The notes under the pieces: generated by a model
What the model was told of the DNA's origin: nothing
Seen by the model: the letters and a program-made list of their open reading frames with translations, nothing else
The model's database searches: none
Shown: positions 7,922 through 64,000 of the stretch, piece after piece
How the letters are laid out: every line of letters starts with the position of its first letter
How positions within the stretch are numbered: position 1 is the stretch's first letter
Program-made: the position numbers and the translations under genes
Assembly (NCBI RefSeq): GCF_013409505.1
Contig: NZ_JACCBN010000001.1
Span: 3,844,001-3,908,000 of the forward strand
DNA from: Actinomycetospora corticicola
Lineage (GTDB): Bacteria; Actinomycetota; Actinomycetes; Mycobacteriales; Pseudonocardiaceae
Length of the DNA: 64,000 bases
Reading direction: 5' to 3'

Positions 7922-9493
7922 GTGACAGCTCGTCGCGTCGTCGCCGGGCGGTATCGCCTCGAGGAGCGCATCGGGTCGGGCGCGATGGGCGTCGTCTGGC
8001 GCGGGACGGACGAGCGGCTCGGCCGTGTCGTCGCCGTCAAGCAGGTCTTCCTCAACCAGGGCCTCGACGAGTCCGAGGCCGACGAGGTCCGCCAGCGCAC
8101 CCTCCGCGAGGGACGCATCGCGGCGCGGCTGCAGCACCCGCACGCGATCTCGGTCTTCGACGCCTCCATCGAGGGCGACGAACCGTGGCTCGTCATGGAG
8201 TACCTGCCCTCGCGCAGCCTCTCCGCGATGCTCGCCGAGCAGGGGCCGCTCGACCCGCGCCTCGTCGCGCGCATCGGCCGCCAGGTCGCCGACGCCCTCG
8301 ACGCCGCCCACCAGGCCGGCATCGTGCACCGCGACGTCAAGCCGGGGAACGTCCTCATCGGCAGCGACGGCACCGTCAAGATCACCGACTTCGGCATCTC
8401 CCGCGCCACCGGCGACCTGACCCTCACCCGCACCGGCATGCTCGCCGGCACCCCCGCCTACCTGGCCCCCGAGGTCGCCCGCGGGGAGGACTCGACGTTC
8501 GCCTCCGACGTCTTCTCCCTCGGCGCCACGCTGTACGCGGCGGTCGAGGGCGTGCCGCCCTTCGGGTCGGAGGACAACGCGCTCGCGCTGCTGCACGCCG
8601 TGGCCGCCGGGGCGGTGAACCCGCCGGTCCAGGCCGGGCCGCTGACGGCGCTGCTCATGCGCCTGCTCCGCGACGACCCCACCGAGCGCCCCACCCCGGC
8701 CCAGGCCCGCCGCGAGCTCGGCCGGATCGCCCACGCCGCCGGGTCCGCGTCGACCGCGAGCTGGGCCCGCGCCGACCTCGACGAGGCCCGGGTCCCCGAC
8801 TCCCGCCGCTCCACCGAGTCCGACCGCGTCGCCACCGGTTCGCGAGGTCGCTCCGGCGGGACCCCGTCGCCCACCTGGCACGGCAGCCCCTTTCCCGACG
8901 CCGGGTCGGAGGACCCGGGCCCGACGCTCGGCGACGGCGACCGGGTAGGGCCGCCCGCCCCGCCCGCCCCGCGGTCCAACGGGTCCGGTCCGCGCGCCGT
9001 CGCGGCCGCTCCCGCCTCCCGTGCGAAGCGCCGTCGTCCGACCACGGCCATCGTCGTCGCGGTGCTGCTCGCCGCCGTACTCGCGGGCGTCCTGCTCGCC
9101 GTCGCCCTGACCCGCGGCTCGACCGGCACCGAGGGCGCCTCGCTCGGGTCGCCCACGTCGACCGGGGTGGCGGGACCGACCGACGAACGGACCCAGATGG
9201 TCGCCGCGGTCCGCGACTACTACTCGATCGTCACCGCGAACCCCGGCGCGGGCTGGGCGCGGCTCGGCGCGACCATGCAGGACACCGCGGGCGGGTTCGG
9301 CGGCTACCAGAGCTTCTGGTCGACGATCGCGTCCGTGCAGGTCACCGACGCCGAGGCGATCGACGACGACACGGTCCGGGCGACCCTGGTGTTCACCTCG
9401 AAGAACGGGTCGACCAGCCGCGAGGTCCACGAGCTCGGGATGGGCCGCGGCACCGGCGGCGGCTGGCTGATCAACTCGGAGCGGACCGTCTAG
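7922..9493 (+). CDS. Transmembrane serine/threonine protein kinase (Pkn family)
   Basis: This is a Hanks-type kinase with Gly loop GSGAMGVVW (18-26), ATP-binding Lys40, catalytic HRDVKPGN (136-143), DFG (156-158), activation loop with TRTGMLAGTPAYLAPE (170-184), and a full C-lobe to about 270. A Pro/Ser-rich juxtamembrane linker follows, then one membrane helix (about 375-397) and an exported domain of about 125 residues. The exported domain (MVAAVRDYYSIV then GGWLINSERTV) resembles the SnoaL/NTF2-like sensor fold seen in other actinobacterial kinases. There are no PASTA repeats. The GTG start is preceded by GGAGGGAGG. The kinase presumably senses an extracellular cue; the ligand is unknown. 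Confidence 0.92.
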   Translation: MTARRVVAGRYRLEERIGSGAMGVVWRGTDERLGRVVAVKQVFLNQGLDESEADEVRQRTLREGRIAARLQHPHAISVFDASIEGDEPWLVMEYLPSRSLSAMLAEQGPLDPRLVARIGRQVADALDAAHQAGIVHRDVKPGNVLIGSDGTVKITDFGISRATGDLTLTRTGMLAGTPAYLAPEVARGEDSTFASDVFSLGATLYAAVEGVPPFGSEDNALALLHAVAAGAVNPPVQAGPLTALLMRLLRDDPTERPTPAQARRELGRIAHAAGSASTASWARADLDEARVPDSRRSTESDRVATGSRGRSGGTPSPTWHGSPFPDAGSEDPGPTLGDGDRVGPPAPPAPRSNGSGPRAVAAAPASRAKRRRPTTAIVVAVLLAAVLAGVLLAVALTRGSTGTEGASLGSPTSTGVAGPTDERTQMVAAVRDYYSIVTANPGAGWARLGATMQDTAGGFGGYQSFWSTIASVQVTDAEAIDDDTVRATLVFTSKNGSTSREVHELGMGRGTGGGWLINSERTV

Positions 9494-50817: not shown

Positions 50818-51102
50818 TCAGTACCGGGCGGCGTTGCGTTGCTCCACCGCCCGGTAGGTCTGCTCGGCCTGCCCGAGCCGTCCCCCGACGAGGCCGAGGA
50901 CCTGGGCGAGGTCGGCCCAGGCGGTGTCGATCTCGCGCTGCCGGGCGCGGTACTGCTCGGCCGCGGCACCGGTCCAGCCCGCGACGAGCGGGGCGAGCCG
51001 CCGCTCGAGGTCGTCGAGCTGCCCGCGGATGCGGGTCGCGGTGGCGGTCACGTTCTGCTGGGCGGCGGAGAGCTCGCCGAAGGTCACGCGGATCTCGTCC
51101 AT
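50818..51102 (-). CDS. WXG100 family type VII secretion substrate (EsxT-like)
   Basis: The 94-residue two-helix protein has the WTG turn at 43-45 (AGWTGAAAEQY) and the export signal YRAVE (YxxxE) near the C-terminus. GGAGGAG precedes the ATG. It is paired with a second WXG100 gene 11 bp upstream, with which it should form a heterodimer. Position next to rplM matches Mycobacterium ESX-4 (esxT/esxU). Confidence 0.9.
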   Translation of the reverse strand: MDEIRVTFGELSAAQQNVTATATRIRGQLDDLERRLAPLVAGWTGAAAEQYRARQREIDTAWADLAQVLGLVGGRLGQAEQTYRAVEQRNAARY

Positions 51103-51113
51103 GTCGTCTCCTC

Positions 51114-51425
51114 CTAGCCCAGGGCCCGGCCGATGCGCGAGGTCGAGGCGGCGACCTCGTCCTCGGCGGCCCGGTAGCCGACCGCGGAGGCCTGGACGGA
51201 CTCCGCGATGGCCCCGAGGGCCGCGTTGATCCGGTTCGCGTCGTCGTTCCAGCGCGCCATCAGCTGCGAGAAGGCGACCGACGCGTCGCCCCGCCAGGTC
51301 GCCTCCAGGGGGACCAGCTGCCCGCGCAGCTGCGCGAGCTGCGCGGTGATCTGGTCCCGCACCTCCAGGACGTGCTGCCCCGCCCCCTGCATCAACTGCG
51401 TCTCGGTCCCGAACTGTCCTGCCAT
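51114..51425 (-). CDS. WXG100 family type VII secretion substrate (EsxU-like)
   Basis: The 103-residue two-helix protein has the WRG turn at 44-46 (EATWRGDASVAF) and a C-terminal YRAAE export motif. GGAGGAG lies five bases before the ATG. Partner of the downstream WXG100 gene. Both lie behind the interrupted eccC, so expression and export may be affected by the insertion. Confidence 0.9.
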   Translation of the reverse strand: MAGQFGTETQLMQGAGQHVLEVRDQITAQLAQLRGQLVPLEATWRGDASVAFSQLMARWNDDANRINAALGAIAESVQASAVGYRAAEDEVAASTSRIGRALG

Positions 51426-51517: not shown

Positions 51518-53410
51518 TCAGGGCGGGCTGCGCAGCGTCCCCACCACCCGCTCGCAGGCCGCGAGCACGGCGTCCCGCGAGGCCTCGTCGTGGCGGCAGC
51601 CCACCGAGAGCTGGGTGCTCCCGAGGAAGAGCACGACCCAGTCCACCGTCGTCCCGGGCGCCGGGACCTGCCGGTAGGTCGCCACCTCGCGCCCGGCGAA
51701 CGTCGTCTCGGGCTGCAGGTCCGACACCCCGCCCCCGGCGGACCGCGCCGCCTCGAACCCGGCGAGCAGCTGGGCCCGCGCCCCGGCCGGGTCCGGCGAG
51801 GCGAGCGCGCTCTCCTGCACCGCGACGAGGTTCGGGCCGGTCGGCTGCCCCTCGGGCCGGATGCGGCTGCGACGGTACTCCGCGTCGGAGCCGTCGACGG
51901 TCCAGCCCGCCGGGAGCTCGTAGGCGTGGGCGAAGACCGAGACCACCGTCGGCGCGCTCGCCCCCGCCGTCGGCCCCTCCCCGCCCCGCAGCCCGGCCAC
52001 CGCCAGGATCAGCACGACCACCGCCACCGTCGCCGCGGCCACCAGCCCCGCCCGGCGGCGGGGGTCCCGCCCGCCCGGACCGACCGGGGGCCCCACCCGG
52101 GCCGGGAGCCGCCCCGCCGGGACGAGCTCGTGGGCGATCCGCACCGTCGGGCCGTCGGGGTCGACGCGGGGTCCGGGTCCCGACGACGGGGTCGGGAGCG
52201 GAGCCGCGGAGGCGGCGGGAGCCGGAACGCTCGCCCGGACCGGGGCACGCACTCCCGCGGAACCCGCGCCGCCGGCCGGAGCGGTCGGACGGGCGGGACC
52301 GGCCACCGGCCACTCGGGCAGCAGCACCGGGCGGACCGCCGGCGCGGGGACGGGCACCCGCCCGGCGGCGGCTGTCGCGAGCAGGGCACCGCGGGCGACG
52401 ACGGTCCGCGGATCGGCCGGGACCACCGGCGGCACGCCGAGCCCGCGGTGCACGAGGGTCGCGAGCAGCGGGGTCCGGGCCAGGCCGCCGACCAGCCGGA
52501 CGTCGGCGAGGCGCGCGGCGGGCACCCCGGCCTCGTCGAGCACGCCGGCGAGCAGGTCGACGAGGTCGCCGCAGGGTGCCCGGAGGAGGTCCTCGAGTTC
52601 GCCCCGCGAGCACCACGCCGTGCCGGCCGTACCGGGCAGCGGCACGTCGGCCTGCTCGGACTCGGAGAGCCGCTCGCGGGCGTCGCGCACGTCCTCGACG
52701 AGCACCTGACGGTGCCGACGGTCCGGCAGGGTGGCGCCCTCGACCACGGCGTGCACCCGGGCGACGTCCCCGGTGGTGGCGGTCAGGCCCGCCACGACGT
52801 GCGCCAGGAGCAGTTCGTCGGCGTCGTCCCCGCCGAAGGCGCTTGAGGCCCGGTGCGCCAGCACGTGCCCGGTCGCGTCGACGACCGCGGCCGTCGCCCC
52901 CCGTGCGCCGACGTCGAGCACGGCGGTCGGACCGTCGCGGCCGGTCGGACGCATCCAGCGCGCGTGGGCCGCCGCGGCCACGGGTTCGGCCACCAGCGCG
53001 AGGTCGGCCGCGAGTCCGGTCCCGGCGCGCCGCAGGACCTCCCGCCGCCGCGCCCCCCAGTCCGCGGGGTGGGTGAGCACGAGGACGTCCGGGCGCTCCC
53101 CGCGCAGGGCGGGCCGCGCCCGGTCGACCGCCGCCGCGAGGACGGCGCCGAGCGCCTCGACGACCCCGACGGTGCGGGTGCCGAGCAGGAGGGAGTCGGC
53201 GTCGACGGCGCGGCGCGGTCGCGGTTCGAGGCGGGTGGGGTCGGCCGCGGCCCGCGCCCGCGCGGCGGCGCCGGTGACGAGGGCGGCGTCGTCCGGGGCG
53301 AACACGGCCGGGAGGTCCGGGGCGAGCTCGACCGCCTCGGCCCCGCCGCCCGGGTCGACCACGGCGACGACGCCGGTGTCGCCGAGGTCGACCGCGACGC
53401 GGCGGCTCAC
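51518..53410 (-). CDS. Type VII secretion-associated protein (TIGR03931-like, ESX-4)
   Basis: The 630-residue membrane protein has an N-terminal Hsp70/actin-like ATPase fold (VAVDLGDTGVVAVVD, VLDVGARGATAAVVD, LVGGLARTPLL at about 5, 170 and 310). A long Pro/Ala-rich linker follows, then one membrane helix (about 470-488, AGLVAAATVAVVVLILAVAG). The exported C-terminal domain (AYELPAGWTVDGSDAEY, GCRHDEASRDAVLAACERVVGTL) is the TIGR03931-type module. This is the position of Rv3446c in mycobacterial ESX-4. The GTG overlaps the eccC stop by four bases. Confidence 0.82.
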   Translation of the reverse strand: MSRRVAVDLGDTGVVAVVDPGGGAEAVELAPDLPAVFAPDDAALVTGAAARARAAADPTRLEPRPRRAVDADSLLLGTRTVGVVEALGAVLAAAVDRARPALRGERPDVLVLTHPADWGARRREVLRRAGTGLAADLALVAEPVAAAAHARWMRPTGRDGPTAVLDVGARGATAAVVDATGHVLAHRASSAFGGDDADELLLAHVVAGLTATTGDVARVHAVVEGATLPDRRHRQVLVEDVRDARERLSESEQADVPLPGTAGTAWCSRGELEDLLRAPCGDLVDLLAGVLDEAGVPAARLADVRLVGGLARTPLLATLVHRGLGVPPVVPADPRTVVARGALLATAAAGRVPVPAPAVRPVLLPEWPVAGPARPTAPAGGAGSAGVRAPVRASVPAPAASAAPLPTPSSGPGPRVDPDGPTVRIAHELVPAGRLPARVGPPVGPGGRDPRRRAGLVAAATVAVVVLILAVAGLRGGEGPTAGASAPTVVSVFAHAYELPAGWTVDGSDAEYRRSRIRPEGQPTGPNLVAVQESALASPDPAGARAQLLAGFEAARSAGGGVSDLQPETTFAGREVATYRQVPAPGTTVDWVVLFLGSTQLSVGCRHDEASRDAVLAACERVVGTLRSPP

Positions 53411-55920
53411 GGGTCGTCCCGGGCGGGGGTGGGCCGGATCGGCTCGTCCGGGTCGCGCCACGCGAGCTGCACGAGCGTCTCCCCGTGCCGGCGGGTCACG
53501 AGCACGGCCCGCCCGGGGGGCCGCGGGCCCGGCCGGGCCGCGCCGACCAGCGGGCCCTCGTCCCGGCTGCCGTGCCCGACCAGGCCGGGCGTGGCCAGCT
53601 CGCGCAGCCGGGCGAGGACCGGCTCGAACATCGCCCGGGAGGCGCCGCCGACGCGGCGGGCCACGACCACGTGCAGCCCGATGTCCTTGGCCTGGGCCAG
53701 CAGGTCGAGCAGCGCGGTGAGCGGGTTGCCGGTCGCGGTGGCGACGAGGTCGTGGTCGTCGACGAGGAGGAACACCTCGGGACCGGTCCACCAGGACCGG
53801 GCACGCAGCTGCTCGGGGGTGACGTCGGGCCCCGGGAGCCGGCGGCGCAGCGAGGCGACGAGGTCGGTCATCGCCTCGGTGAGCGCGTCCGCGGTCGAGG
53901 TGTAGCTGATGAGGTGCTCGGACTCGACGGCCCCGAGCAGTCCCCGCCGGTAGTCGACGATCATGAGTCGGGCCTGCGCGGGCGTGTACCGGGTGACCAC
54001 CTGGTGGGCGAGCAGCCGCAGGAACGACGTCTTGCCGGACTCGCCGTCGGCGTAGACCAGCAGGTGGGGGTCCGCGGCCACGTCGAGCAGGACCGGCGCG
54101 AGCCGGTCCTCGTCGACCCCGATCGGCAGCAGGTGCCGCTCCCCGACGTCCGGACCGGGCAGGGCCGCGACGTCCACCCGGTCCGGCAGCAGTTCGACCG
54201 GGGCCACGCCGGTCCCGGGCCACGCGGCGGCGACGGCGGGGACGACGTCGGGCTCGGGGAGCGCGACGAGGACGTGGCTGCGGTCGGGCGCGATGCCGTG
54301 CCCGGGGCGGCCGGTCGGGACCGTGGCGGCCACCCGGCGGTCGACCTCGGACTCCCCGGGGTCGCCGAGCCGCAGCTCGATGCGGGTGCCGAGCAGGTCC
54401 TTCAACGCGGGCCGCAGGTCCGCCCAGCGCCCGACCCCGATCGCGACGTGCACCCCGTAGGACAGCCCGGTGGTCGCCAGCGTGAGGACCGTGGCCTCGA
54501 GCGCCTCGTGGTCGGCGCGGAACGCGTGCCAGCCGTCGACGACGAGCACGAGGTCGCCGAACGGGTCGGGCAGGTCCTCCCCGCGTCGCCGGCGCTCGCG
54601 CAGGTCGGCGACCGAGGCGATCCCCCGCTCGCGGAACCAGCGTTCGCGGGCGGTGGCCACGGCCGCGACCTCGGCGACGACGCGACGCACGAGGTCGGTG
54701 TCGCCGCGGCCGGCGACGGTGCCGACGTGCGGGAGGTCGGCGAGCCCCGCCAGGGTCCCGCCGCCGAGGTCGACGACGTGGAAACCCAGCTCGTCCGGGG
54801 TGTGGGTGAGCGCCGCGGCGCAGATCAGGGTGCGGAGCAGGGTCGACGTCCCGGCGCGCGGTCCCCCGGCCACGCCCACGTGGCCCGCCGCCCCCGAGAG
54901 GTCGGCCCAGAGCACCTCCCGGCGCTGCTCGTAGGGCCGGTCGACCAGGCCCAGCGGGAGGCGCAGGGTGCCGTTCGCCGGGAAGCCCGGGGCGCGCCGA
55001 CCGCGGTCGGTGTCCGACAACGGCGGGAGCAGGGTCGTCAGCCCGACCGGCCCGGCGAGCGGGGGCAGCCACACCTCGTGGGCCGGGGGCCCCGCGTCGC
55101 GCAGCCGGTCCACCACGGTGTCGAGCACGCTCGGCGCGGCGTCGTCCGGCGTCGGACCGACCGGGGCGGGCAGGGCGACGGAGCCGTCCGGCGGGTCGAC
55201 CCAGCCGCCGTGGAAGGGCCGGGGCACGGCGTGGCGTCGGGACGGGGTCGCGGCGGGGCGCGGGGCGTCGCCCGCGCGGCGGACCGGGCCGGACACGTAC
55301 CCGGCGGTGAAGCGCACCATCGTCGAGGTGTCCGAACGCAGGTAGCCCGTGCCGGGCACCGCGGGCAGCGTGGCGGCGTCCGGGACCCCGAGGACGGCGC
55401 GGGAGTCCGCGGCGGAGAACGTCCGCAGCCCGATCCGGTAGGAGAGGTGCGACTCGAGCCCGCGCAGCCGCCCCTCGTCGACGCGCTGCGAGGCGAGCAG
55501 CAGGTGGATCTGCAGCGAGCGGCCGAGCCGGCCGATCGCGGTGAACAGGTCGGCCAGGTCGGGCTTCTGGTGCAGCAGCTCGGAGAACTCGTCGACCACC
55601 ACGAACAGGGCGGGCAACGGCGTGAGGTCGGCGCCGCGCTCCCGGGCCCGCTCGTAGTCCGCCACCGAGGCGAGGTTCCCGGCGGCCCGCAGCAGTTCCT
55701 GACGACGGGTCATCTCGCCCGCGAGGGCGTCCTGCATCCGGTCGACGAGCGCGAGGTCGTCGGCGAGGTTGGTGATCACGGCCGCGACGTGCGGCGCGTC
55801 GGCCAGGCCGGCGAACGTGGCGCCGCCCTTGAAGTCGACGAGGACGAGATTGAGCGCCGCCGACGAGTGGGTGGTGATCAGGCCGAGGACGAGGGTCCGC
55901 AGGAGCTCCGACTTGCCCGA
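53407..55920 (-). pseudogene. eccC: EccC secretion ATPase, 5' part removed by element insertion
   Basis: The remaining 837 codons carry the three FtsK/SpoIIIE-like ATPase domains of EccC. Domain 1 begins abruptly at SGKSELLRTLVLGLI, the second half of its Walker A, and has Walker B ALFVVVDEFSELL. Domain 2 has the degenerate GGPRAGTSTLLRTL and LVLVVDGWHAF. Domain 3 has ADGESGKTSFLRLL and VFLLVDDHDLV. The N-terminal membrane helices and the first half of Walker A (expected GATG) are missing. Beyond base 55920 the sequence changes to the integrase leader, and an in-frame TGA appears within 18 bases. The missing part should lie at the other end of the inserted element. An internal GTG at 55779 could start a truncated product. 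Confidence 0.85.
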
Positions 55921-55942
55921 ACAAGGGTTGTACGCTCACTCT
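55900..55942. other. Element/chromosome junction (att site) in the eccC Walker A codons
   Basis: Left of 55920 the minus strand reads the codons for S-G-K-S-E-L-L in frame with eccC. Right of 55921 eccC homology ends (the codon for Gly before SGKS is not there) and AACAAGGGTTGTACGCTCACTC leads into the integrase ATG at 55943. The breakpoint 22 bp from a serine integrase marks it as attL or attR; the shared core must include part of CTTGCCCGA. Confidence 0.7.
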
Positions 55943-57487
55943 ATGTCCGCTCTTCTCACCGCCCTCCGCGTTGTCCTCTACCTGCGGATCAGCTCCGACC
56001 GGGACGGCGATGCCCTAGGGGTGGAGCGACAGCGGGAGGACTGCCTGAACCGCGCTGAGCGTGAGGGTTGGACCGTAGTCGGTGAGTATGTGGACAACGA
56101 CAAGGGTGCCTCTACGAAGAGCACGAAAAAGCGTCCCGAGTATGACCGGATGATCGGCGACGCAAGAGCCGGGAAGTTTGACGTCATCCTGGGTTATTCG
56201 GCTTCTCGTCTCACCCGTCGGCCGAAAGAGTACGAAACTCTGATTGAGCTTTCGGAGCGTCACAAGGTGCGGATTCGTACCGTTGCAAGCGGTGACGCTG
56301 ACTTCTCAACGGCGGACGGCCGGGCCGTTGCCCGCACGATTGCGGCGTGGGACGCGGCGGAAGCTGAGCGGATCGGTGAGCGCGTAAGCCGTAAAGTCCG
56401 GGAGAATGTCAAAGCTGGGAAGTTTCTCGGTGGTCGTCGCCCGTTCGGTTTCGAGAGTGACGGCGTGACCATCCGGGAGTCTGAGGCGGAGGAGATCAGG
56501 AACGCTACCGCTACCGTTCTCCGTGGCGGCTCTCTTCGATCTATCGCCCTGGACCTGAACACCCGTGGCGTGAAGACCTCCGCCGGAAAGGACTGGAGTC
56601 CTCTCGCAGTTCGTGACCTTCTCCGTCGCCCCAGGAACTCCGGAATGGTGAAGTATGCGCCCACCGAGTGGGACGAGGATGACAACGGCAACAAGGTCCG
56701 CAAGGTGAACCGTTCTCACGCAGCGGTTGGTAAGGCTTCCTGGGATGCCATCGTGACGGAGGATGAGCGCCTGGCTGTGGTCGCCATTCTGGAGGACCCT
56801 AAGCGCAAGACCTCCCCCGGCAATCAGCCCTCTTACCTGGGCTCCAGCATCTACCTTTGTGGAGTCTGCGGAAGCAAGGTCCGAACCTCCGCTAGTGGTG
56901 GTCGCGCTACCCGCTACGTGTGCAACGGCGGAAAGGGCACCGGACCTAATCACCTCTCTCGCAATGCCGACAAGACGGACGCTCTTGTGAATGCAGAGAT
57001 GGTGGAGTGGCTTACCGCGTTCATCGGCGTCAATAAGCTCATGGCTTCCAAGCCGGGGGCTTCCGTCACCCCGGAATGGTCCAGGCTCACCACGGAGCTA
57101 ACGGCCGTCCAGGCACGCGCTACGGAACTTCAGGAGGACTACGCGGACGGGTACATGAGCCGTGCGGAGTTCCGTTCTGCCGTGGACCGCAACCGCGACC
57201 GTGAGGCACAGATCAGGGAGGAAATGGACCGGCTTACCGCTCCGTCCAACCGTCTCCCGATGTTTGACAACGTGAAGACTCCGGGGGAAGTCCCGGAGAA
57301 GTGGGAAGCCCTCTCCATCGAAGAGAAGCGCAAGGTGGTCGGATCTGCCCTCCAGGTCTCCATCCTGCCCACGGAGAAGCGTGGCCCGGTATTCGATCCG
57401 GAAAGCGTCCAGGTGACCCCTAAGCTCAACCCTCTTACTCTCGTCGGTGAGCCCAACGTCCCGGAGCACGATCACACGGACAAATAA
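55943..57487 (+). CDS. Large serine recombinase (phage-type integrase)
   Basis: The 514-residue integrase has the resolvase catalytic domain with YLRISSDRDGDALGVERQ (catalytic Ser17 of the YxRxS motif), GYSASRLTRRPKEYE and AAWDAAEAERIGERVSRK. Then come the recombinase domain (GRRPFGFESDG, SIALDLNTRGVKTS) and a zinc ribbon beginning LCGVCGSK. A coiled-coil (about 395-455) includes ELQEDYADGYMSRAEF. Such enzymes join attP and attB without host factors and need a recombination directionality factor for excision; none is recognised here. It lies directly at the element boundary. Confidence 0.95.
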   Translation: MSALLTALRVVLYLRISSDRDGDALGVERQREDCLNRAEREGWTVVGEYVDNDKGASTKSTKKRPEYDRMIGDARAGKFDVILGYSASRLTRRPKEYETLIELSERHKVRIRTVASGDADFSTADGRAVARTIAAWDAAEAERIGERVSRKVRENVKAGKFLGGRRPFGFESDGVTIRESEAEEIRNATATVLRGGSLRSIALDLNTRGVKTSAGKDWSPLAVRDLLRRPRNSGMVKYAPTEWDEDDNGNKVRKVNRSHAAVGKASWDAIVTEDERLAVVAILEDPKRKTSPGNQPSYLGSSIYLCGVCGSKVRTSASGGRATRYVCNGGKGTGPNHLSRNADKTDALVNAEMVEWLTAFIGVNKLMASKPGASVTPEWSRLTTELTAVQARATELQEDYADGYMSRAEFRSAVDRNRDREAQIREEMDRLTAPSNRLPMFDNVKTPGEVPEKWEALSIEEKRKVVGSALQVSILPTEKRGPVFDPESVQVTPKLNPLTLVGEPNVPEHDHTDK

Positions 57488-57504
57488 GCCCTGAAACGAC
57501 GAGA

Positions 57505-57542
57505 AGCCCCGTCCCGGAAGATTCCAGGGCGGGGCTCCTTAA
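57505..57542. terminator. Bidirectional terminator after the integrase
   Basis: AGCCCCGTCC (57505-57514) pairs with GGGCGGGGCT (57527-57536; one G-T pair), and the loop holds an inner GGAA/TTCC stem. CCTTAATAT follows on the plus strand. It separates the integrase from the convergent gene. Confidence 0.75.
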
Positions 57543-58096
57543 TATAAGCTACCTGCTAACCAGCCGTCCGGCATCGGTGGTCGAATCTCCTGCCATTCCC
57601 GTGTGATCTGGAGATTGAGTGCGTGGTACTCATCAGCGATGCGCTCAATATCGCCGATAGAAAACGCCTTCTGCGTAAGATTTCCTTTCAGGCGACTTTT
57701 GGAACAGATCAGCACAGGTGTCCCGTCCTCTTCGTCGTTGCCAAAGGGTCGGGGATTCACCTTACTGTCCGGGGACAGAGACGCCCGCCTCCACGTTCCG
57801 TGGATTATCCAATTGCGACTCTCTGCGAGCGGACCGATAGCGTCAACTCGCTCTTTGAATACTCGCAACATTTCCACCGTGCCGGAGAGGTCATTAGCCT
57901 CGTCCACACCGACCTTGACGGCCCAACGGAGCCATGACGTCGACTGCCCCTCTACGACCGGAATCGCGGCCCGAGAGCGGTAGAGGCTCATCAGCACCCA
58001 CCGCAGAAGTTCATCCGTCCCCGCGCTAGCGATTGCAACCGCACCGATCCCCTGAGCTAGCTGAGCCGACTCTTCCGGCGAGTAGGTAGGAACCAT
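57539..58096 (-). CDS. Unknown protein with HEPN-like RNxxxH motif
   Basis: The 185-residue, mostly helical protein has helices ELLRWVLMSLYRSRAAIP and TVEMLRVFKERVDAIGPL. The segment AESRNWIIHGTWRR (about 107-120) contains R-x4-H, the pattern of HEPN-fold RNases and nucleic-acid-binding proteins. ATG 58096 has GGAG upstream; an in-frame extension to 58234 lacks a good ribosome site and overlaps the next gene. Location beside the integrase and next to membrane-protein genes is typical of phage cargo such as exclusion or abortive-infection genes, which is inference. Confidence 0.6.
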   Translation of the reverse strand: MVPTYSPEESAQLAQGIGAVAIASAGTDELLRWVLMSLYRSRAAIPVVEGQSTSWLRWAVKVGVDEANDLSGTVEMLRVFKERVDAIGPLAESRNWIIHGTWRRASLSPDSKVNPRPFGNDEEDGTPVLICSKSRLKGNLTQKAFSIGDIERIADEYHALNLQITREWQEIRPPMPDGWLAGSLY

Positions 58097-58198
58097 GGTC
58101 TCCAGGTTAGGCCTGGGCCACGGAACGGCCGCTAGCTGCTCAACGGCCCGACCCATGCGGGATGAGGGAGCCCGTTCCTGGGGCTGAGAAGACCGTTG

Positions 58199-59101
58199 GT
58201 GCCCGACATGGAAACGGCCCCGCTCCGCCCCCACACGGGAGGGCTGGCTTCACTCGCCGCCGTCTGTCCGCCTAGCCTCACTCCCGTGACGCGGAGGCTC
58301 AGCCGAGGACTGCTGTTGCTCTACCCTGTCGGGGCCATCCTCTTCGTGGTCGGCGTGTGGGGAGGGCTGCCTGAGGCCCCACAGGGCTGGTGGGACACCA
58401 CTGGGTTTGTCGTCAACCTTGTCTCTGGCCTCACCGCGGCGTGCATCGGCATCCCGACGGCCTTCTTCGTCCTGCAGAAGCTCCTAGACGACCGTGCGAA
58501 GAGGATAGCGCGAGAGGAAGCAATCCTACTGTCCCTCCGGAACCTTCTAGCGATCGAAGCGGACTTCCTAAGCATCTGGGGAATCGGCCGGGGAGAAGCC
58601 CAGGATAAGTGCATATCTATGCAGCTCATTACAGAACTACAGAGAGCGCGCAGCGCGGCAAGCCAAACCGCAGGAAGGCACTCCCGGACGGTCAAGGGCA
58701 ACGGTCGCAAGCAATCTGTCGTCTCGCGTCCAGACGAAGTGCTTTTACCCTACGAGGACCCGCAGCCTCCACAAGTCGCTAGAGACGACGCTCTTGAGCG
58801 ACTCGACCACCAACGACGAGTCATCGCGGATCGGTCCATCTCTAACGGCATTGCGCCCACTCCGAACGCTTCCCTAGCTCAGATTCTCTCGGTCCTACAC
58901 GGCGCTGCGGAAACGGACCTCCTACACCCTTGTCGGCGAATGCGCGCGCGGTTGCCGACCGGTGCCGGGCCGACTGTGGTCCTGGACGAGTGGTCGCGCG
59001 TCCTCACCGGCTTAGAGCTGGAGCTGTCGCAGAGGCGCGCATGGCTCACACCGCTCATTGCGGAGATTGATCGCCACACCCTGCTTCTGGCGGAAAGGTG
59101 A
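58199..59101 (+). CDS. Two-helix membrane protein, tandem paralogue 1
   Basis: About 300 residues. Two adjacent hydrophobic helices near the N-terminus (LLLLYPVGAILFVVGVWGG, then TGFVVNLVSGLTAACIGIP) are joined by GWWDTTGF, followed by a long cytoplasmic helical part that starts LQKLLDDRAKRIAREEA. The next gene repeats the same plan (GWWDKTGFIVNLASGLTAACFGIP). GAGAAG lies before GTG 58199; ATG 58208 is an alternative. Stop and next start overlap (GTGA). No known family recognised. Confidence 0.7.
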   Translation: MPDMETAPLRPHTGGLASLAAVCPPSLTPVTRRLSRGLLLLYPVGAILFVVGVWGGLPEAPQGWWDTTGFVVNLVSGLTAACIGIPTAFFVLQKLLDDRAKRIAREEAILLSLRNLLAIEADFLSIWGIGRGEAQDKCISMQLITELQRARSAASQTAGRHSRTVKGNGRKQSVVSRPDEVLLPYEDPQPPQVARDDALERLDHQRRVIADRSISNGIAPTPNASLAQILSVLHGAAETDLLHPCRRMRARLPTGAGPTVVLDEWSRVLTGLELELSQRRAWLTPLIAEIDRHTLLLAER

Positions 59102-60063
59102 GCAAGCTTCCGTCTTGGGACCTCCAGCTCGTGCCCAAAGCGCTGAAACGACCTCTGTGGCTGCTGGTTCCACTGGGAATCGCTCTTACGGCCGTGGGTC
59201 TCTTCGCGCCCTTCCCACAAGGTGAGACTGGCTGGTGGGACAAGACGGGTTTCATCGTCAACCTCGCATCCGGTTTGACTGCGGCGTGCTTTGGAATCCC
59301 GGTGGCCTTTTATGGCATCCAGTGGCTTCTCGAGAAGCGACAACGAGAGAATGAGCTCAAGACGCTGGAATACCTCTTGAGGAAGAACGTCCTCGATCTA
59401 GGGCGGGCCGGGACCGGGATCGTTCTTAGCCTTCTCGTCGGGAAACTCTCAGAGGCGCACGCCGCCGTTGTGAAAGTAGCGATGTTACTTAGTGCCCTCC
59501 AAGCTTACGATCAAGGCGCTGTTTGGAAACACGACAAGAGTCTTGGACAATCCAAAGCACACCTGGAAGAGCTCCTTGATAGCGTCCAGCACGACCACCT
59601 GGATGGCTTCATCGGATTAGAGGCGCTTTCAATGCTCGGTCGCCCAGACAACCACCGAATCGCGATTTCCAAGCTAAACACGATAATGACTGATCTTCTA
59701 CCGCGTTTCGACTACCTAGAGCAAGCGTCTGGAATCTCCGAGTACGACTTGCACCTACTTGATGAATATCTACATAAGCCCAACGCTGTAGAGATTCTAA
59801 AGGCGTATGCCGAACCACCACTCTCGGGAAGGGTGGAACTTGTCCTTCCCTCGTCGAGTTCGGGTACGGGCTTTTCCATCAATACTGAGGCCCTCGCAGT
59901 ACTGCAAGACGACACCTCTTCTGTCGTTTCTGCTTTATGGTATTACAATCAATTCTTGCAGGTTCTAGGGAGAGTCTGCTCCGCCTTGGAGGTCGACATC
60001 GAGCCTATGTTGGAATTCAGATCGATCTACCGGCCAAACTACGACGAGGAGTTGGGCCCATGA
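59098..60063 (+). CDS. Two-helix membrane protein, tandem paralogue 2
   Basis: The 321-residue protein is clearly homologous to the upstream gene over the membrane hairpin (WLLVPLGIALTAVGLFAP, GWWDKTGF, SGLTAACFGIPVAFYGIQWLLEKRQ). It differs in the cytoplasmic part, which is helical, contains VGKLSEAHAAVVKVAMLLSAL, and ends in RSIYRPNYDEELGP. It is translationally coupled by a four-base overlap. The pair probably forms a heteromeric membrane complex. Base use is AT-richer towards the 3' end. Confidence 0.72.
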   Translation: MSKLPSWDLQLVPKALKRPLWLLVPLGIALTAVGLFAPFPQGETGWWDKTGFIVNLASGLTAACFGIPVAFYGIQWLLEKRQRENELKTLEYLLRKNVLDLGRAGTGIVLSLLVGKLSEAHAAVVKVAMLLSALQAYDQGAVWKHDKSLGQSKAHLEELLDSVQHDHLDGFIGLEALSMLGRPDNHRIAISKLNTIMTDLLPRFDYLEQASGISEYDLHLLDEYLHKPNAVEILKAYAEPPLSGRVELVLPSSSSGTGFSINTEALAVLQDDTSSVVSALWYYNQFLQVLGRVCSALEVDIEPMLEFRSIYRPNYDEELGP

Positions 60064-60593
60064 AGGAGATGCAGTACCTGCAAGAACGAACTTTTTGAAC
60101 CCGGCGCTGGTTAGACAGCCCTCCCCGGCGGTCCCGTAGTCCATGGCTGGAGGGGGCACCCCCCGGCTAGGGGGGCATCGCGACGCGTCGACGCGCTCCA
60201 GCTCGACCGCACACAGACTTTGTCAATAAGAAAGAAGAAAAAGCAAAAGAGAAAAACAAAACAACAATTCGCATCGCAACGCTTGCGTTGTGTTGGCGTG
60301 CATGTCATGCCATGAGGGCAAGCCGTATGGTCAAGGCATATGCGTACGCATCACTGTTGTTGTGTGCTCAGCATGCTATTGCTCTTGTGCTTATTGCTTA
60401 GTGCAATGCATAGCGTGAGGGCTATGGATATGAGGGGGGCATGGCATAGGGCTAGGCCCAGGCAGTACAGGGGGTGAGGCATACCTACCTACCGGGTGGA
60501 TAGAGCAGGGGGGCATATCAAGGGGGTGCACAGAAGGGAGGAAGGGCACAGCGCTAGATCAGCACTGCACCCTTCCCGGATTCCTGTCTCGTC
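60064..60593. other. 530-bp AT-rich non-coding block between convergent phage gene sets
   Basis: No ORF is convincing. It holds CCCCCC-GGCTA-GGGGGG (60161-60177), a hairpin that may end the rightward transcript. A run of about 50 bases at 60224-60273 is nearly free of G and C apart from isolated bases (AAGAAAGAAGAAAAAGC). CAACGC-TT-GCGTTG, the palindrome ATGCGTACGCAT, and GCTATTGC...GCAATGCATAGC hairpins follow. An origin, a small RNA gene or a transcription-stop zone are possible. Confidence 0.5.
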
Positions 60594-60830
60594 CTAGCCG
60601 GGCACCGCTAGCTGGGTACGGGAGGCACGCTGCCTATCCGCCTTCCCGCACCCACAGGACTCAGTACGGCCGGACACGAGTCCCGATGTGTAGACCGGCC
60701 TCGTGATGCCGCAATCGCACCGGCAAGTCCACCGGGTATTCCTGCCACCGTTCCGGCAGGGCACCGGCTCAGCGGGCTCCAGGACTAGCCACCGGCCGAA
60801 CCGCCTACCGGCTAGGTCTACCCCTGCCAT
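60594..60830 (-). CDS. Small Cys-rich ribbon protein, paralogue 1
   Basis: The 78-residue protein has GRRFGRWLVLEPAEPVP, then RWTCRCDCGITRPVY, and RTESCGCGKADRQR. The FGRxxV...WxCxCDCG...SCGC plan is a small zinc-binding domain common in phage genomes, often near AP2 or HNH modules; role unknown. A second copy is at 63580-63846. Its ATG overlaps the upstream stop (TAATG). Confidence 0.75.
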   Translation of the reverse strand: MAGVDLAGRRFGRWLVLEPAEPVPCRNGGRNTRWTCRCDCGITRPVYTSGLVSGRTESCGCGKADRQRASRTQLAVPG

Positions 60831-61672
60831 TACCGGGAACGGCGAGGATCGAGAGTGGCACCCAGGGTCGGAAGAGAACCGGCGGCACGGCGGATTCCCT
60901 GTGCGTGCCCGATGGCTAGGGCACTCGCCTTCCGGCGGGAGTCCGACGAGGTGGCAGCCTTCCGAACGGCAGCACTAGAGATAGCGTCGTACAGCCGGTC
61001 AACATCGGTGCCCGACCATCCCCGGCCGGTTACGTACATCTTGAGCCAATGCCGGTCGGCAAGCATCGCTGCCACCGAATCGTCATGCTGCTCCACGTAC
61101 CGGACAGCGGCAGCCTGTGCGGACACGGCGGAATGAGCCGCTCCGAGAAGCATCTTCGCATCCTCGCGGGCAACCATTTCCTGACCGGCAGGAACCTTCG
61201 GAAGTGCATCCTCCGTCAGCAGAGCAATAGCCGTGTCGGCTAGCGCCATAGCGTCCGCGGAAGCCTTCCCTAGTTCCCGACGACCGGACTCAATCAGCTC
61301 CTCCGCAACGGCCACCTTCCCGGCCGGATTCGCTAGCTGATCGTCAAGCGTGCGCTTCACCGACGAGGCTGCAACCGCAGCGCCGTTCTGCCCGGCCACG
61401 TACGCGTCACGGGCGGCAACGAGGACCTTCCCGGCATCGCCTAGGGCACCGGGTGAGTAGGCCCCGGCTCCAGCCGTTGCCTCCCGGCTCAGTGCCGCTC
61501 CGATCGTCTCGCGCTGTCCAGCCATCTCCTCATACCGGGAAGTGTCGGACGAGGCCATGAGGCCTCGATACGCGTTCGCGTCCGCCTTATCCCGCCGGTC
61601 GTTCGCCCGGTCACGGGCAGCGGCCACACGGTCCTCGTGCGCGATCACTGCGTCAGTGTCGTTCTCGTTCAT
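60830..61672 (-). CDS. Helical protein of unknown function
   Basis: The 280-residue, Ala-rich, almost wholly helical protein starts with a charged coiled-coil-like segment (EDRVAAARDRANDRRDKADANAY) and has long amphipathic helices through residue 200. A shorter C-terminal part includes WLKMYVTGRGWSGTDVDRLYDAI. GGAAGAGAG lies five bases before the ATG. No family recognised; scaffold-like or DNA-binding roles are open. Confidence 0.65.
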   Translation of the reverse strand: MNENDTDAVIAHEDRVAAARDRANDRRDKADANAYRGLMASSDTSRYEEMAGQRETIGAALSREATAGAGAYSPGALGDAGKVLVAARDAYVAGQNGAAVAASSVKRTLDDQLANPAGKVAVAEELIESGRRELGKASADAMALADTAIALLTEDALPKVPAGQEMVAREDAKMLLGAAHSAVSAQAAAVRYVEQHDDSVAAMLADRHWLKMYVTGRGWSGTDVDRLYDAISSAAVRKAATSSDSRRKASALAIGHAQGIRRAAGSLPTLGATLDPRRSR

Positions 61673-61797
61673 CGTTGCTCTCTTCCAATTGACTCTAGGT
61701 GTCGCCTGATCGTCGCTATCTCGCACCGGGGACAGAGTGACGACCGACTCCGCCCCGACTGTTCGGAATGGCACCCCGACGAGGTGACACTCCTCTA

Positions 61798-61983
61798 CTA
61801 ATCGTCACTTGGTAGGGGGTCGCCGGCTTCGGCCTGCCCCGTTTCCGGTGACGTCATATTCCTGATCCGCTCCATGGCTTCCTCTTCCCGCCTACGGCGT
61901 TCCTGTGCCGTAATGAACTTCGGGGAGAAGTCATGCGTGCACGGGACTCCGAGCGTCTTACAGAAGCAACTCATCGGCGCCAT
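61798..61983 (-). CDS. Small protein with CFC...C motif
   Basis: The 61-residue product starts MAPMSCFCKTLGVPCTHDF (three Cys and a His, possible metal site), followed by a charged helix ITAQERRRREEEAMERIR and an acidic tail. A GAGAGG site lies upstream. Unknown function. Confidence 0.5.
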   Translation of the reverse strand: MAPMSCFCKTLGVPCTHDFSPKFITAQERRRREEEAMERIRNMTSPETGQAEAGDPLPSDD

Positions 61984-61989
61984 AGTTCT

Positions 61990-62067
61990 CTACCTCTCCG
62001 AGCAATGAACCTGTGTCTCGTCACGAGTCATGTCCGTCTCTACCGGCCACACAATCCAGTCCGTCAT
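61990..62067 (-). CDS. 25-residue coupled micro-ORF
   Basis: An ATG overlapping the stop of the 68-residue gene (ATGA) opens 25 codons beginning MTDWIVWPVETDMTRD and ending at TAG 61990-61992. It fits the chain of overlapping small phage genes but is too short to judge alone. Confidence 0.35.
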   Translation of the reverse strand: MTDWIVWPVETDMTRDETQVHCSER

Positions 62068-62270
62068 AACGTGCCCCATCTCTTCCCGGTCATCCGGTCA
62101 AGGCTGGACTCACCGTTCTCCAGCCCGAACAACAGAACTCCGCCTAGGAGAGGTGGAGGAACGGCAAACCGTGCCTTCCACTCCTCGTCACTCTCTCCCG
62201 GCCTACGGCCTTCCTTTACGTTCTCCATCCACCTATGGATTCTCTGATCCTGGTCTGAGTACCTAGGCAT
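62064..62270 (-). CDS. Small hydrophilic phage protein
   Basis: The 68-residue protein has DQDQRIHRWMENVKEGRRPGESDEEWKARFAVPPP and a short C-terminal part. AGGTGACCT precedes the ATG. Unknown; the charged helical start suggests a partner-binding protein. Confidence 0.5.
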   Translation of the reverse strand: MPRYSDQDQRIHRWMENVKEGRRPGESDEEWKARFAVPPPLLGGVLLFGLENGESSLDRMTGKRWGTL

Positions 62271-62471
62271 AGGTCACCTGTGTTGCGTTAGGGATGGACG
62301 GAGCCACCCAGGGCTCCGCTAGGGCTCCGCCCTGTTCCTAGGCCATCTCAAGACACCCAGGCACGGACGGAGTCCGGTCAATTAAGTGGAGGACCGATCA
62401 CGACAAGGTCCTAGGTAGTGATGATGTGATGAGGAGGGGGATATATAAGGGGGAACCATCATCATCACCAC
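62271..62471. promoter_or_regulatory. Repeat-rich intergenic region after the ATPase gene
   Basis: It contains AGGGCTCCGCTAGGGCTCCGCCCT (tandem/inverted GGCTCCGC units), a TATATAA hexamer, and complementary ends GTGATGATG (about 62417-62425) and CATCATCAC (about 62459-62467) that could form a long hairpin just after the ATPase stop. A promoter for the small leftward genes may lie here. Confidence 0.4.
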
Positions 62472-63500
62472 TCACCGGAGCGACCACCGGTCGCCTTCCC
62501 GCTGGAGCCGTCGCCTGATCTTCCCGTTGCCGGTCATGTGCGTCTGAGCGGTGCTCTCCGTCAGCACACCGGGGAACCTCTTAGCTAGCTCACCGGCTAC
62601 GGCACGGCCGGACTTCTCCGGCCACTCCTGAGCCACCACGGCAGCCATAGCGGCCGCCTGTGCGTCCGTGAGGGCCTTCCTGCCCCTCTCCCGTCCGGCT
62701 GGAGCCTGTGACTCGTCCCCGGCTTCCTCGTGCTGCTCCTCCGGCTCCACCGGCCCGTGACTGAGTACGCGGTAGTCCGGCCCGGCTAGCGGCTGAGCGA
62801 TAATCTCCGCCGGTTGTGCGAGTCCGTTCCCCTGGACATACAGGCCGGTATTCCCGCCCCGGAGTCGACGCCTAGCGGTCTGCCGAACCTGAATCCACGC
62901 ACGGGACTTCTGGACAGGCACCCCGGTACCCATGGGTGCCGCCCCCCGTTTCGTTGCGTACTTCTCCGTCTCGTGGTGGAGGACCACAACGGGAATCCCC
63001 CGGCTCACGAGGAGGTCTAAGCCGTCATAGACGACCGTGGCGGCAGCCGTGTCATTCGGGTCCCCGGTGCTGCCATTCAAGTTGTCCAGGACGACAAAGT
63101 TCCGGCCGGTGCCGATCAGGAGTGAGGTGAGGTCACGCCACTCCTCCGGAGTCTTAGTCATCCCGGTTCGGTACATCGGTACGTCTAGAGCGTTAGCGTC
63201 AGGAACTCCCGCATAGATTCTCTGTGCGTACTCCTCCGGAGAACCGGGGTCCGTGCAGAGGATGGCTGGACGCCAGTCCTTCGACTCGTCCACCGGTTGC
63301 ATTCCCAGGAACTCCCTCCCGTCCACCATGAGGGAGAGAAGCATGGACGCGACGAGGTAGGACTTCCCTACATTCGACGGTCCGTAGAGAGTCGTGATGC
63401 TGGAGGAGATGACTTCATGGAACACCCATCGTTCCGTCCGACTGGCACGCTCGAACGCTTCCGCTAGGGACAGAACCGGGAACCTCTCACTGGTCACCAC
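62472..63500 (-). CDS. AAA/RecA-like ATPase (phage RepA / RecA-superfamily type)
   Basis: The 342-residue protein has Walker A TLYGPSNVGKSYLVASM (about 35-51), AILCTDPGSPEEYAQRI, Walker B NFVVLDNLNGSTGD, and the sensor VVVLHHETEKYATKRGAAPMGTG, the layout of RepA-like and RecA-superfamily ATPases in phages and plasmids (AAA_25). The C-terminal part (LTDAQAAAMAAVVAQEWP, GRAVAGELAKRFPG) looks like a winged-helix module. It likely acts in replication or recombination of the element. The GTG start overlaps the preceding micro-ORF. Confidence 0.8.
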   Translation of the reverse strand: MVTSERFPVLSLAEAFERASRTERWVFHEVISSSITTLYGPSNVGKSYLVASMLLSLMVDGREFLGMQPVDESKDWRPAILCTDPGSPEEYAQRIYAGVPDANALDVPMYRTGMTKTPEEWRDLTSLLIGTGRNFVVLDNLNGSTGDPNDTAAATVVYDGLDLLVSRGIPVVVLHHETEKYATKRGAAPMGTGVPVQKSRAWIQVRQTARRRLRGGNTGLYVQGNGLAQPAEIIAQPLAGPDYRVLSHGPVEPEEQHEEAGDESQAPAGRERGRKALTDAQAAAMAAVVAQEWPEKSGRAVAGELAKRFPGVLTESTAQTHMTGNGKIRRRLQREGDRWSLR

Positions 63501-63580
63501 TCGTCCCCTAGTCGACTATTCCAGCCCGGCCGGTGCTCGTTCACGAGACGCTCCGCCTCGTCGTCTAGGCCCTCGTCCAT
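63494..63580 (-). CDS. 28-residue coupled micro-ORF
   Basis: The ATG overlaps the stop of the ribbon-protein gene (TGATG), and the TGA overlaps the start of the ATPase gene. Peptide MDEGLDDEAERLVNEHRPGW continues to RLGDEW. It may serve only to couple translation. Confidence 0.4.
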   Translation of the reverse strand: MDEGLDDEAERLVNEHRPGWNSRLGDEW

Positions 63581-63846
63581 CACGCCGCGCGGAATCCGTA
63601 CCGGCGCGACTGGCACCCACAACTCCGGGAAGCACCTTGCTTGAGATTCGTTCCGCGGATGGCCTTCTCCGACCCGCAATCACAACGGCAGTACCACCAC
63701 GCTCCGTCCTTCCGTTGCCGGGCACTCTCCGGCCGTTCGGAGAACGGGCAATAACGGAGGACCACGAGGAGTCCGAACCTCTCCCCCTCCAGGCCCCGAA
63801 TCGTCGTGTTCCGGTTGCCCTCTCCGTACTTCTCTACGTCAGCCAT
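63580..63846 (-). CDS. Small Cys-rich ribbon protein, paralogue 2
   Basis: The 88-residue protein has GERFGLLVVLRYCPF, DGAWWYCRCDCGSEKAI and GASRSCGCQSRR, the same plan as the protein at 60594-60830. Its ATG overlaps the stop of the upstream gene (TGATG). Zinc binding is inferred from the CxCDCG...CGC pattern. Confidence 0.75.
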   Translation of the reverse strand: MADVEKYGEGNRNTTIRGLEGERFGLLVVLRYCPFSERPESARQRKDGAWWYCRCDCGSEKAIRGTNLKQGASRSCGCQSRRYGFRAA

Positions 63847-64000
63847 CACGCGTCTCCGTTCGCTAGGGCTAGTGCTCGTTCTCCGGGATATAGCGGGACC
63901 ATCGGCCCCGACGGCGGGAAGTACCGACCCGCCTCGTGGATCAGTCCGTCACGGAGCCATCCCTTGACGCGCTCAACCGCGTTCCGAACTCCGTGCTTCT
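63846..64000 (-). CDS. C-terminus of an unknown phage gene, partial
   Basis: Fifty codons are open from the window edge, including NAVERVKGWLRDGLIHEAGR and GPMVPLYPGERALALA, with a TGA overlapping the next ATG. The first part reads like the end of a winged-helix or primase-associated helix. Not identifiable further. Confidence 0.5.
   Translation of the reverse strand, partial: KHGVRNAVERVKGWLRDGLIHEAGRYFPPSGPMVPLYPGERALALANGDA

Follow-up and report, generated by a model that had tools for sequence, protein, structure and literature searches.

The window analysed here is a 64,000-nucleotide stretch of the Actinomycetospora corticicola genome (C1:3844001-3908000; the genome is 6.17 Mb in one contig), and it contains part of an integrative element that interrupts eccC, the ATPase gene of an ESX-4-type secretion locus, at its first Walker A motif. 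The locus lies on the minus strand at 49.6-55.9 kb of the window and comprises rpsI, rplM, two WXG100 genes, a TIGR03931 (Rv3446c-type) gene and the 3' part of eccC. By comparison with the Mycobacterium tuberculosis gene order, the ESX-4-type assignment rests on the presence of EccCa/EccCb, EccD, EccE, TIGR03931, two WXG100 proteins, L13 and S9, while a mycosin was found below its cut-off. The 3' part of eccC (53407..55914, minus strand) is an open frame from the left attachment site (attL) core (SGKSELLRTLVL...), with its first in-frame GTG/ATG/TTG start at 55779 (790 aa). The product of window 53407-55779 is clearly EccC (TIGR03925, 1.2e-229), and yet TIGR03924 is matched only at profile positions 508-673; therefore the first part of EccC is missing from the window piece.

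The original prediction, made on this DNA from the sequence alone, had EccC homology on the minus strand ending at the S-G-K-S-E codons, at 55920. This was confirmed, the position being correct within a few bases; the ambiguity is that of a 10-bp repeat at 55913-55922. The predicted large serine recombinase next to the break was also borne out: an integrase gene (55943..57487, plus strand) begins with an ATG 20 bp inside attL. Large serine recombinases are typically about 450-650 aa, with a Resolvase N-terminal catalytic domain and a Recombinase domain, and the 514-aa product has this size and both domains (PF00239, 2.7e-27; PF07508, 6.5e-14). It also matches integrase PHROG 95 (9.8e-94), and its Zn_ribbon_recom match (PF13408) reaches 24.7 bits against a cut-off of 25.3. 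A tRNA as the attachment gene was rejected, in agreement with the prediction, as ARAGORN found no tRNA or tmRNA in the window or in L009, the region read past the window end (window position = L009 position + 55499).

The 5' half of eccC, which was expected at the far end of the element, was found 4.1 kb beyond the window end (L009:12595-14151, minus strand). It consists of 494 codons ending GLCVGATGSG, matches TIGR03924 at profile positions 1-465 and terminates ...GPHGLCVGATGSGN; the next genes are eccD, mycP, eccE and truA. A genome search with PF01580 led to the same half through a fragment (profile positions 10-53) at C1:3912163-3912303. A short direct repeat, also anticipated, is present at both ends and is 10 bp long: the attL core at 55913..55922 (minus strand; GTTCGGGCAA on the eccC strand), in which 55913-55914 hold the AA of AAG, the codon for the Walker A lysine, and a second copy outside the window at L009:12668-12677 (from C1:3912167), so that attL and the right attachment site (attR) have the 10-bp core in common. 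The 10-mer TTGCCCGAAC occurs at only two positions in L009, 414 and 12668, which gives an element of 12,254 bp (L009:414-12667 = C1:3899913-3912166); its window part is 55913..64000, with 4,166 bp more beyond the window end. The element has a G+C content of 61.5%, and the flanks read have 72% (left, 413 bp) and 81% (right). When the host flanks are joined in silico they give VGATGSGKSELL in frame, and a single open frame runs through VGATGSGKSELLRTLVL. Both ends and the direct repeat support the proposal that a serine-integrase element was inserted into the Walker A codons.

Orthologous eccC was found in 17 of 18 genomes of the genus, that of the window included, and in all 16 others with the gene the Walker A motif is uninterrupted (GATGSGKSELLRTLVL), which answers the call for intact copies in close relatives. 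In one of these (G007) the motif was read and the contig ends soon after, for which reason it was rejected as a split case; G019 was rejected too, having a frame break with no insert. Another of the 16 (G005) was rejected as a second Walker A case: its eccC keeps the motif and breaks after DFKGGATFAG (L051:5487-5730; L093 ~8830-8930), and on the second contig a serine integrase adjoins the 3' part. This break is, as far as its sequence goes, a second integration site within eccC.

The nearest genome of the genus (G001) is 94% identical with a 177-aa N-terminal query and, among the matches listed, 99% identical with a 197-aa query spanning the site. For codon changes, the window branch (G000) was set against the branch of this sister, as raw counts with no significance test. 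With G016 as outgroup, synonymous/non-synonymous changes in the N-half number 53/8 on the window branch and 48/8 on the sister branch, and in the C-half 112/12 and 89/15; the other two of the three outgroups agree in direction. The split eccC thus gives no sign, in these codon comparisons, of relaxed selection on the window lineage, and since the changes on its branch are about as synonymous as those of the sister, either the element arrived recently or the gene remains in use. An intact second ESX-4 eccC had been named beforehand as a sign that the split copy is a decayed remnant. A second intact EccC does exist (L010:4514-8458, 1315 aa; P-loop codons uninterrupted, EccB- and EccD-like genes adjoining), but it belongs to another type VII secretion system (T7SS) locus of the genome and is only 60% identical to the split EccC over the compared stretch. 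As the split copy is without sign of decay despite this second EccC, the idea of a remnant beside a spare was rejected.

The break is not peculiar to this genome. The 197-aa query was run against 390 genomes of the family and 20 were then chosen for inspection, mostly for weak best scores and with G000 included, a choice which passes over genomes having another well-scoring EccC; among them eccC is split at Walker A in G231, G232, G309, G310 and G352 as well. The GTDB species collection was also scanned for PHGxx[VI]GATG[ST]G followed by AAY, a pattern that is blind to breaks followed by A or G and gives no measure of frequency. It returned 16 loci: 10 in Corynebacterium, three in Pseudonocardia (P. 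sulfidoxydans, P. halophobica and P. autotrophica), two in Pseudonocardiales metagenome-assembled genomes (MAGs) and one in a Mycobacterium sp., five of the 16 being genomes already caught by the 197-aa query. At every one GATGSG and AAY are followed by non-eccC DNA, and the 3' half was located in 15 of the 16; no eccC C-half was found in C. parakroppenstedtii. A serine integrase stands beside the break at all 17 sites, window included. The P. halophobica and P. autotrophica elements are equal in length (13,842 bp) and were counted as one event at most. The same pattern returned one contig from IMG/VR, whose junction sequence suggests the Corynebacterium sp. SN15 element. Stops are absent from the first 520 codons behind the lysine in 12 of 14 other C-halves read; the exceptions are C. 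alimapuense, with one stop, and C. oculi, for which six are listed. The same break in 16 other assemblies, and a genome in one contig, make chance or assembly error unlikely, and recurrence in other genera upholds the earlier suggestion that the P-loop is a reliable attachment site across hosts.

Comparison of the two junctions narrows the point of exchange. In nine of 11 elements compared, the AA of the lysine codon is the entire run common to attL and attR (in C. oculi, GGGA|AA|T opposite GTTT|AA|G); longer runs occur in P. sulfidoxydans (5 bp) and the window (10 bp). Five of the 11 came to light independently of the AAY pattern: P. autotrophica and the two MAGs, which belong to the nine AA-only cases, and the window and P. 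sulfidoxydans. All 14 aligned attL rows have an intact lysine codon, which is expected in itself. These alignments suggest that the AA of this AAG codon is the crossover dinucleotide, in the window by extension. Furthermore, the arms of the element-borne site (attP) are inverted repeats in most elements, matching at 16 of 22 positions in the window, a symmetry reached by none of 2000 shuffles, and at 20 of 22 in C. alimapuense. The window arms (ACAACCCTTGTTCGG...CCAAACACGGGTTG) resemble those of C. alimapuense (ACAACCCGTGTTCGG...CCGAACACGGGTTGT), and yet the two integrases are only 30% identical.

The integrases at the eccC site are 28-51% identical between groups. In a tree of 29 integrases, which left out two near-copies (P. 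halophobica and C. parakroppenstedtii) and six other relatives, the eccC label needs five changes, at least two of them forced by well-supported branches; it is more clustered than in shuffles, which gave a mean of 10.1 changes and were as low in three of 500. The integrase lies on the C-half side, pointing away from the C-half, at four of the 17 sites (window, both MAGs and C. senegalense) and on the N-half side at the others. In P. sulfidoxydans the EccC N-half continues in frame into the integrase as a 1007-aa open reading frame (ORF; L086:493-3516), and so the integrase may there be translated from the eccC message as a fusion. Where both halves are on one contig the elements range from 9.5 to 33 kb. 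Among the selected ORFs scanned their cargo is of several kinds, with no shared regulator. P. sulfidoxydans and P. autotrophica have an FtsK/SpoIIIE-type and a Rep_1-type gene besides the serine integrase; the C. alimapuense element has a relaxase and type I restriction-modification genes, and that of C. oculi a GmrSD-type gene and a family A DNA polymerase; C. minutissimum carries an N-6 methylase, and C. pacaense type I restriction-modification and STAND genes. The P. autotrophica element also has a tyrosine recombinase (L087:10790-11734) beside its serine integrase, and the 9.5 kb element of the Mycobacterium sp. encodes an HK97-type major capsid protein (L129:3734-5071), as in small capsid-bearing satellites or remnants.

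For 11 related integrases the flanks were also examined, and seven of these were searched with Pfam, giving T2SSE (TadA/CpaF-type) in four (L012, L013, L015 and L017), ComEC/Competence in one (a ComEC-type competence gene adjoining the integrase, L016:2-1474, and so once more a gene for DNA transfer), NIF3 in one and no match in one. In all four genomes the T2SSE halves meet around Walker A (profile positions 152-165), and they do so twice in G060, where pairing across contigs was assumed. N-side junctions read GGTGSG|N or GGTQAG|N with the AA at the lysine codon in G015, G027 and G060, and C-side junctions with the lysine-codon AA were read in G027 and G060. Two of the TadA rows are identical to the window attB at 29 and 25 of 44 positions (the G027 row excluded). 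In IMG/VR the T2SSE pattern returned 31 contigs, of which four were judged by eye, from protein context, to be TadA/CpaF N-halves and 27 to be chance; in the four, a TadA-like frame is cut at GGTG[ST]G|N. Judged by these junction sequences, the corresponding codon of TadA/CpaF-type ATPase genes is likewise a target of relatives of the window integrase.

It is very probable that the element entered the ESX-4-type eccC by serine-integrase recombination at a conserved P-loop attachment site. The target site (attB) would be the DNA of the first Walker A motif (GATGSGKSELLRT), with which the integrase would pair attP, and strand exchange would take place at the AA of AAG, the codon of the catalytic lysine. 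Insertion would deprive the 5' part of this codon (its end is now GATGSG-N) and the 3' part of a start and a P-loop; as long as the element stays in place, therefore, ESX-4 EccC should be inactive. If the integrase excised the element precisely, the halves would be joined again scarlessly, with the small helix-turn-helix (HTH) protein encoded at the right end as the probable directionality factor. The anatomy of the element, its att core, the recurrence and the dinucleotide common to both junctions are direct observations; as to why the site is used, the simplest reading is that the DNA of these ATPase genes is hardly anywhere better conserved than at the P-loop codons, and this would also explain why several integrase lineages with different elements use the same eccC codon and relatives the TadA/CpaF equivalent. 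That the element gains from disabling a transfer machine is a bolder reading. More generally, the P-loop lysine codon could be a landing site on whose AA, in the motors of envelope transfer machines (ESX-4 EccC and TadA/CpaF), several actinobacterial serine-integrase lineages (of conjugative, mobilisable and capsid-bearing elements) have converged, shutting host gene and protein exchange reversibly while resident; this generalisation is offered tentatively, as a possibility well short of likely.

Several points weigh against integration at the P-loop as described. There is no direct evidence of excision, of an attP circle or of integrase activity. With a shared run of 10 bp, the dinucleotide of the window has to be taken from its relatives, and the nine AA-only cases are themselves not an unbiased set, since the scan pattern demands GGN-AAY and six of them were picked with AA required on one side; in five of the 11 compared elements (both MAGs and three Corynebacterium) the junctions are on different contigs and their pairing was assumed. 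Some breaks lie elsewhere: the T2SSE gene of G048 is broken a few codons after the lysine and, as described above, the eccC of G005 after DFKGGATFAG. The symmetry of the attP arms is weak in P. sulfidoxydans and P. autotrophica, at 12 of 22 positions (3% and 5% of shuffles are as high). Finally, deep branches of the tree are poorly resolved (11 of 26 inner branches are well supported), which makes the number of origins uncertain, and changes of the eccC label may be losses.

ESX-4 has a role in mycobacterial conjugation, and it could be that disruption is adaptive: elements would choose genes for DNA or protein transfer across the envelope (ESX-4 EccC, TadA/CpaF, ComEC), thereby barring competitors or preventing their own loss by recombination. 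The targets seen here, EccC (17 sites), TadA/CpaF-type T2SSE and ComEC/Competence, are consistent with this, as is the enrichment of DNA competence genes among serine-integrase targets given in the text of Durrant et al. 2022 (PMC10083194). However, conservation of P-loop DNA alone could account for EccC and TadA, one of the seven flanks searched is NIF3 and another has no match, and the choice of targets is read here without a control, other P-loop genes lying outside the comparison; we consider this explanation unlikely.

Active lysogeny is known from the comK prophage of Listeria, and by analogy the original prediction had proposed that precise excision could act as a switch for type VII secretion. 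In such a regulatory switch, conditional excision would restore EccC and turn ESX-4 on, to be followed by re-integration. As with comK, the element splits a gene that its excision would restore. The joined halves are in frame, both window halves are open with no relaxed selection seen against three outgroups, 12 of the 14 other C-halves lack early stops, and an excisionase-like gene lies at the right end. A recent insertion would, however, give the same selection signal, and stops occur in the C-halves of C. oculi and C. alimapuense while that of C. parakroppenstedtii was not found; moreover, the site is occupied by elements of many kinds with no shared regulator in the cargo scanned, and nothing in the analysis shows excision. 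Unlike in the Listeria case, regulated excision and a benefit to the host are hypothetical here and the eccC of some hosts has stops; the switch is not supported by these data and we regard it as improbable. An assembly join at 55920, named in advance as a possible refutation, or a one-off illegitimate insertion in an already dead gene, is extremely improbable and was rejected: no point was found in its support, the genome is in one contig, the direct repeat and in-frame rejoining are present, the same codon is hit in 16 other assemblies and no relaxed selection is seen.

Serine integrases with attB in conserved protein-coding genes include those of phiC31 and Bxb1. The element described here is like theirs in having a large serine recombinase beside one att site, a short core, inverted-repeat attP arms and a split gene that excision would restore; it differs in its target, the codon of the EccC Walker A lysine, and in its integrase, whose best-ranked phage relative is only 34% identical. 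According to the main text of Durrant et al. 2022 (PMC10083194), a Mg chelatase/ATP-dependent protease gene is targeted by 12.4% of site-specific integrases, 33 integrases share one prolyl isomerase site, and diverse integrases occur on one target; the sets described there are alike to ours in that distantly related integrases converge on one conserved coding site. The terms EccC, FtsK, ATPase, type VII, P-loop and secretion are absent from that main text, the supplementary tables of which may list the site. In the text of a 2011 survey of actinomycete integrative and conjugative elements (AICEs; PMC3218068), three serine-integrase AICEs sit in protein-coding genes, which are not named in the passages concerned. 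The P. sulfidoxydans and P. autotrophica elements resemble AICEs as described in that text in carrying serine integrase, FtsK/SpoIIIE-type and Rep_1-type genes. In the window genome a PF01580 search (E <= 0.001) found nothing inside C1:3899913-3912166 besides the two eccC ends, so that the window element, having no FtsK/SpoIIIE gene, is not an AICE by that definition. T7SS proteins serve as plasmid markers in the text of PMC8190616, which is not about insertion into eccC. Among the papers listed in the literature searches (open-licence text, exclusive of supplements), none was found to describe the Walker A of eccC or TadA as an attachment site. Mechanisms of this kind are already known, and no account was found there of a P-loop lysine codon serving as a common site in two ATPase families.

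Element ends become easier to locate with an attachment site that is mapped by comparison and serves several integrase groups of varied cargo. The site could be useful in choosing new site-specific integrases for actinobacteria and in asking what the loss of ESX-4 does to the cell, and it makes testable whether mobile elements select the ATPases of transfer machines or merely conserved DNA. For annotation, an eccC or tadA ending GATGSGN or GGTGSGN may signal an inserted element and not a short protein.

The genes behind the break were expected to be intact, and they match their models: the T7SS-associated protein of Rv3446c type (51521..53407, minus strand; TIGR03931, 4.5e-18, with HscA/DnaK-like matches below their cut-offs) and the WXG100 proteins at 51117..51413 and 50818..51117 (both minus strand; TIGR03930, 5e-18 and 9.9e-19). 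Within the element, the small HTH protein of the right end (L009:12437-12616) is excisionase/MerR-like (PHROG 66 excisionase, 1e-8; HTH_17, 4.8e-8). PHROGs were scanned with 10 element proteins, many small ORFs of the right half lying outside this set, and no capsid, terminase, portal or tail gene was found among the 10 except for a weak terminase-small-subunit match of the HTH protein. An AAA_25 ATPase (62472..63500, minus strand; PF13481, 3.3e-12; PHROG 906 polymerase/primase, 1.6e-5) is, from these matches, possibly a replication gene of the element; of the AICE-type replication genes (RepSA, RepAM, Prim-Pol) this weak polymerase/primase match is the only trace, part of the small ORFs having been scanned. 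ORFs at 57539..58234 and 60830..61774 (both minus strand) have no Pfam, PADLOC or PHROGs match. Two adjacent ORFs on the plus strand, 58196..59101 and 59098..60063, resemble each other (104-nt direct repeat, 72%); neither has a Pfam or PHROGs match, the first has none in PADLOC and the second has a weak one (SngA, 0.0012), the only PADLOC match among the seven window-element proteins. The small proteins encoded at 60594..60830 and 63580..63849 (both minus strand) match the same part of the HNH endonuclease family PHROG 374 (8.2e-16 and 6.1e-14, respectively).

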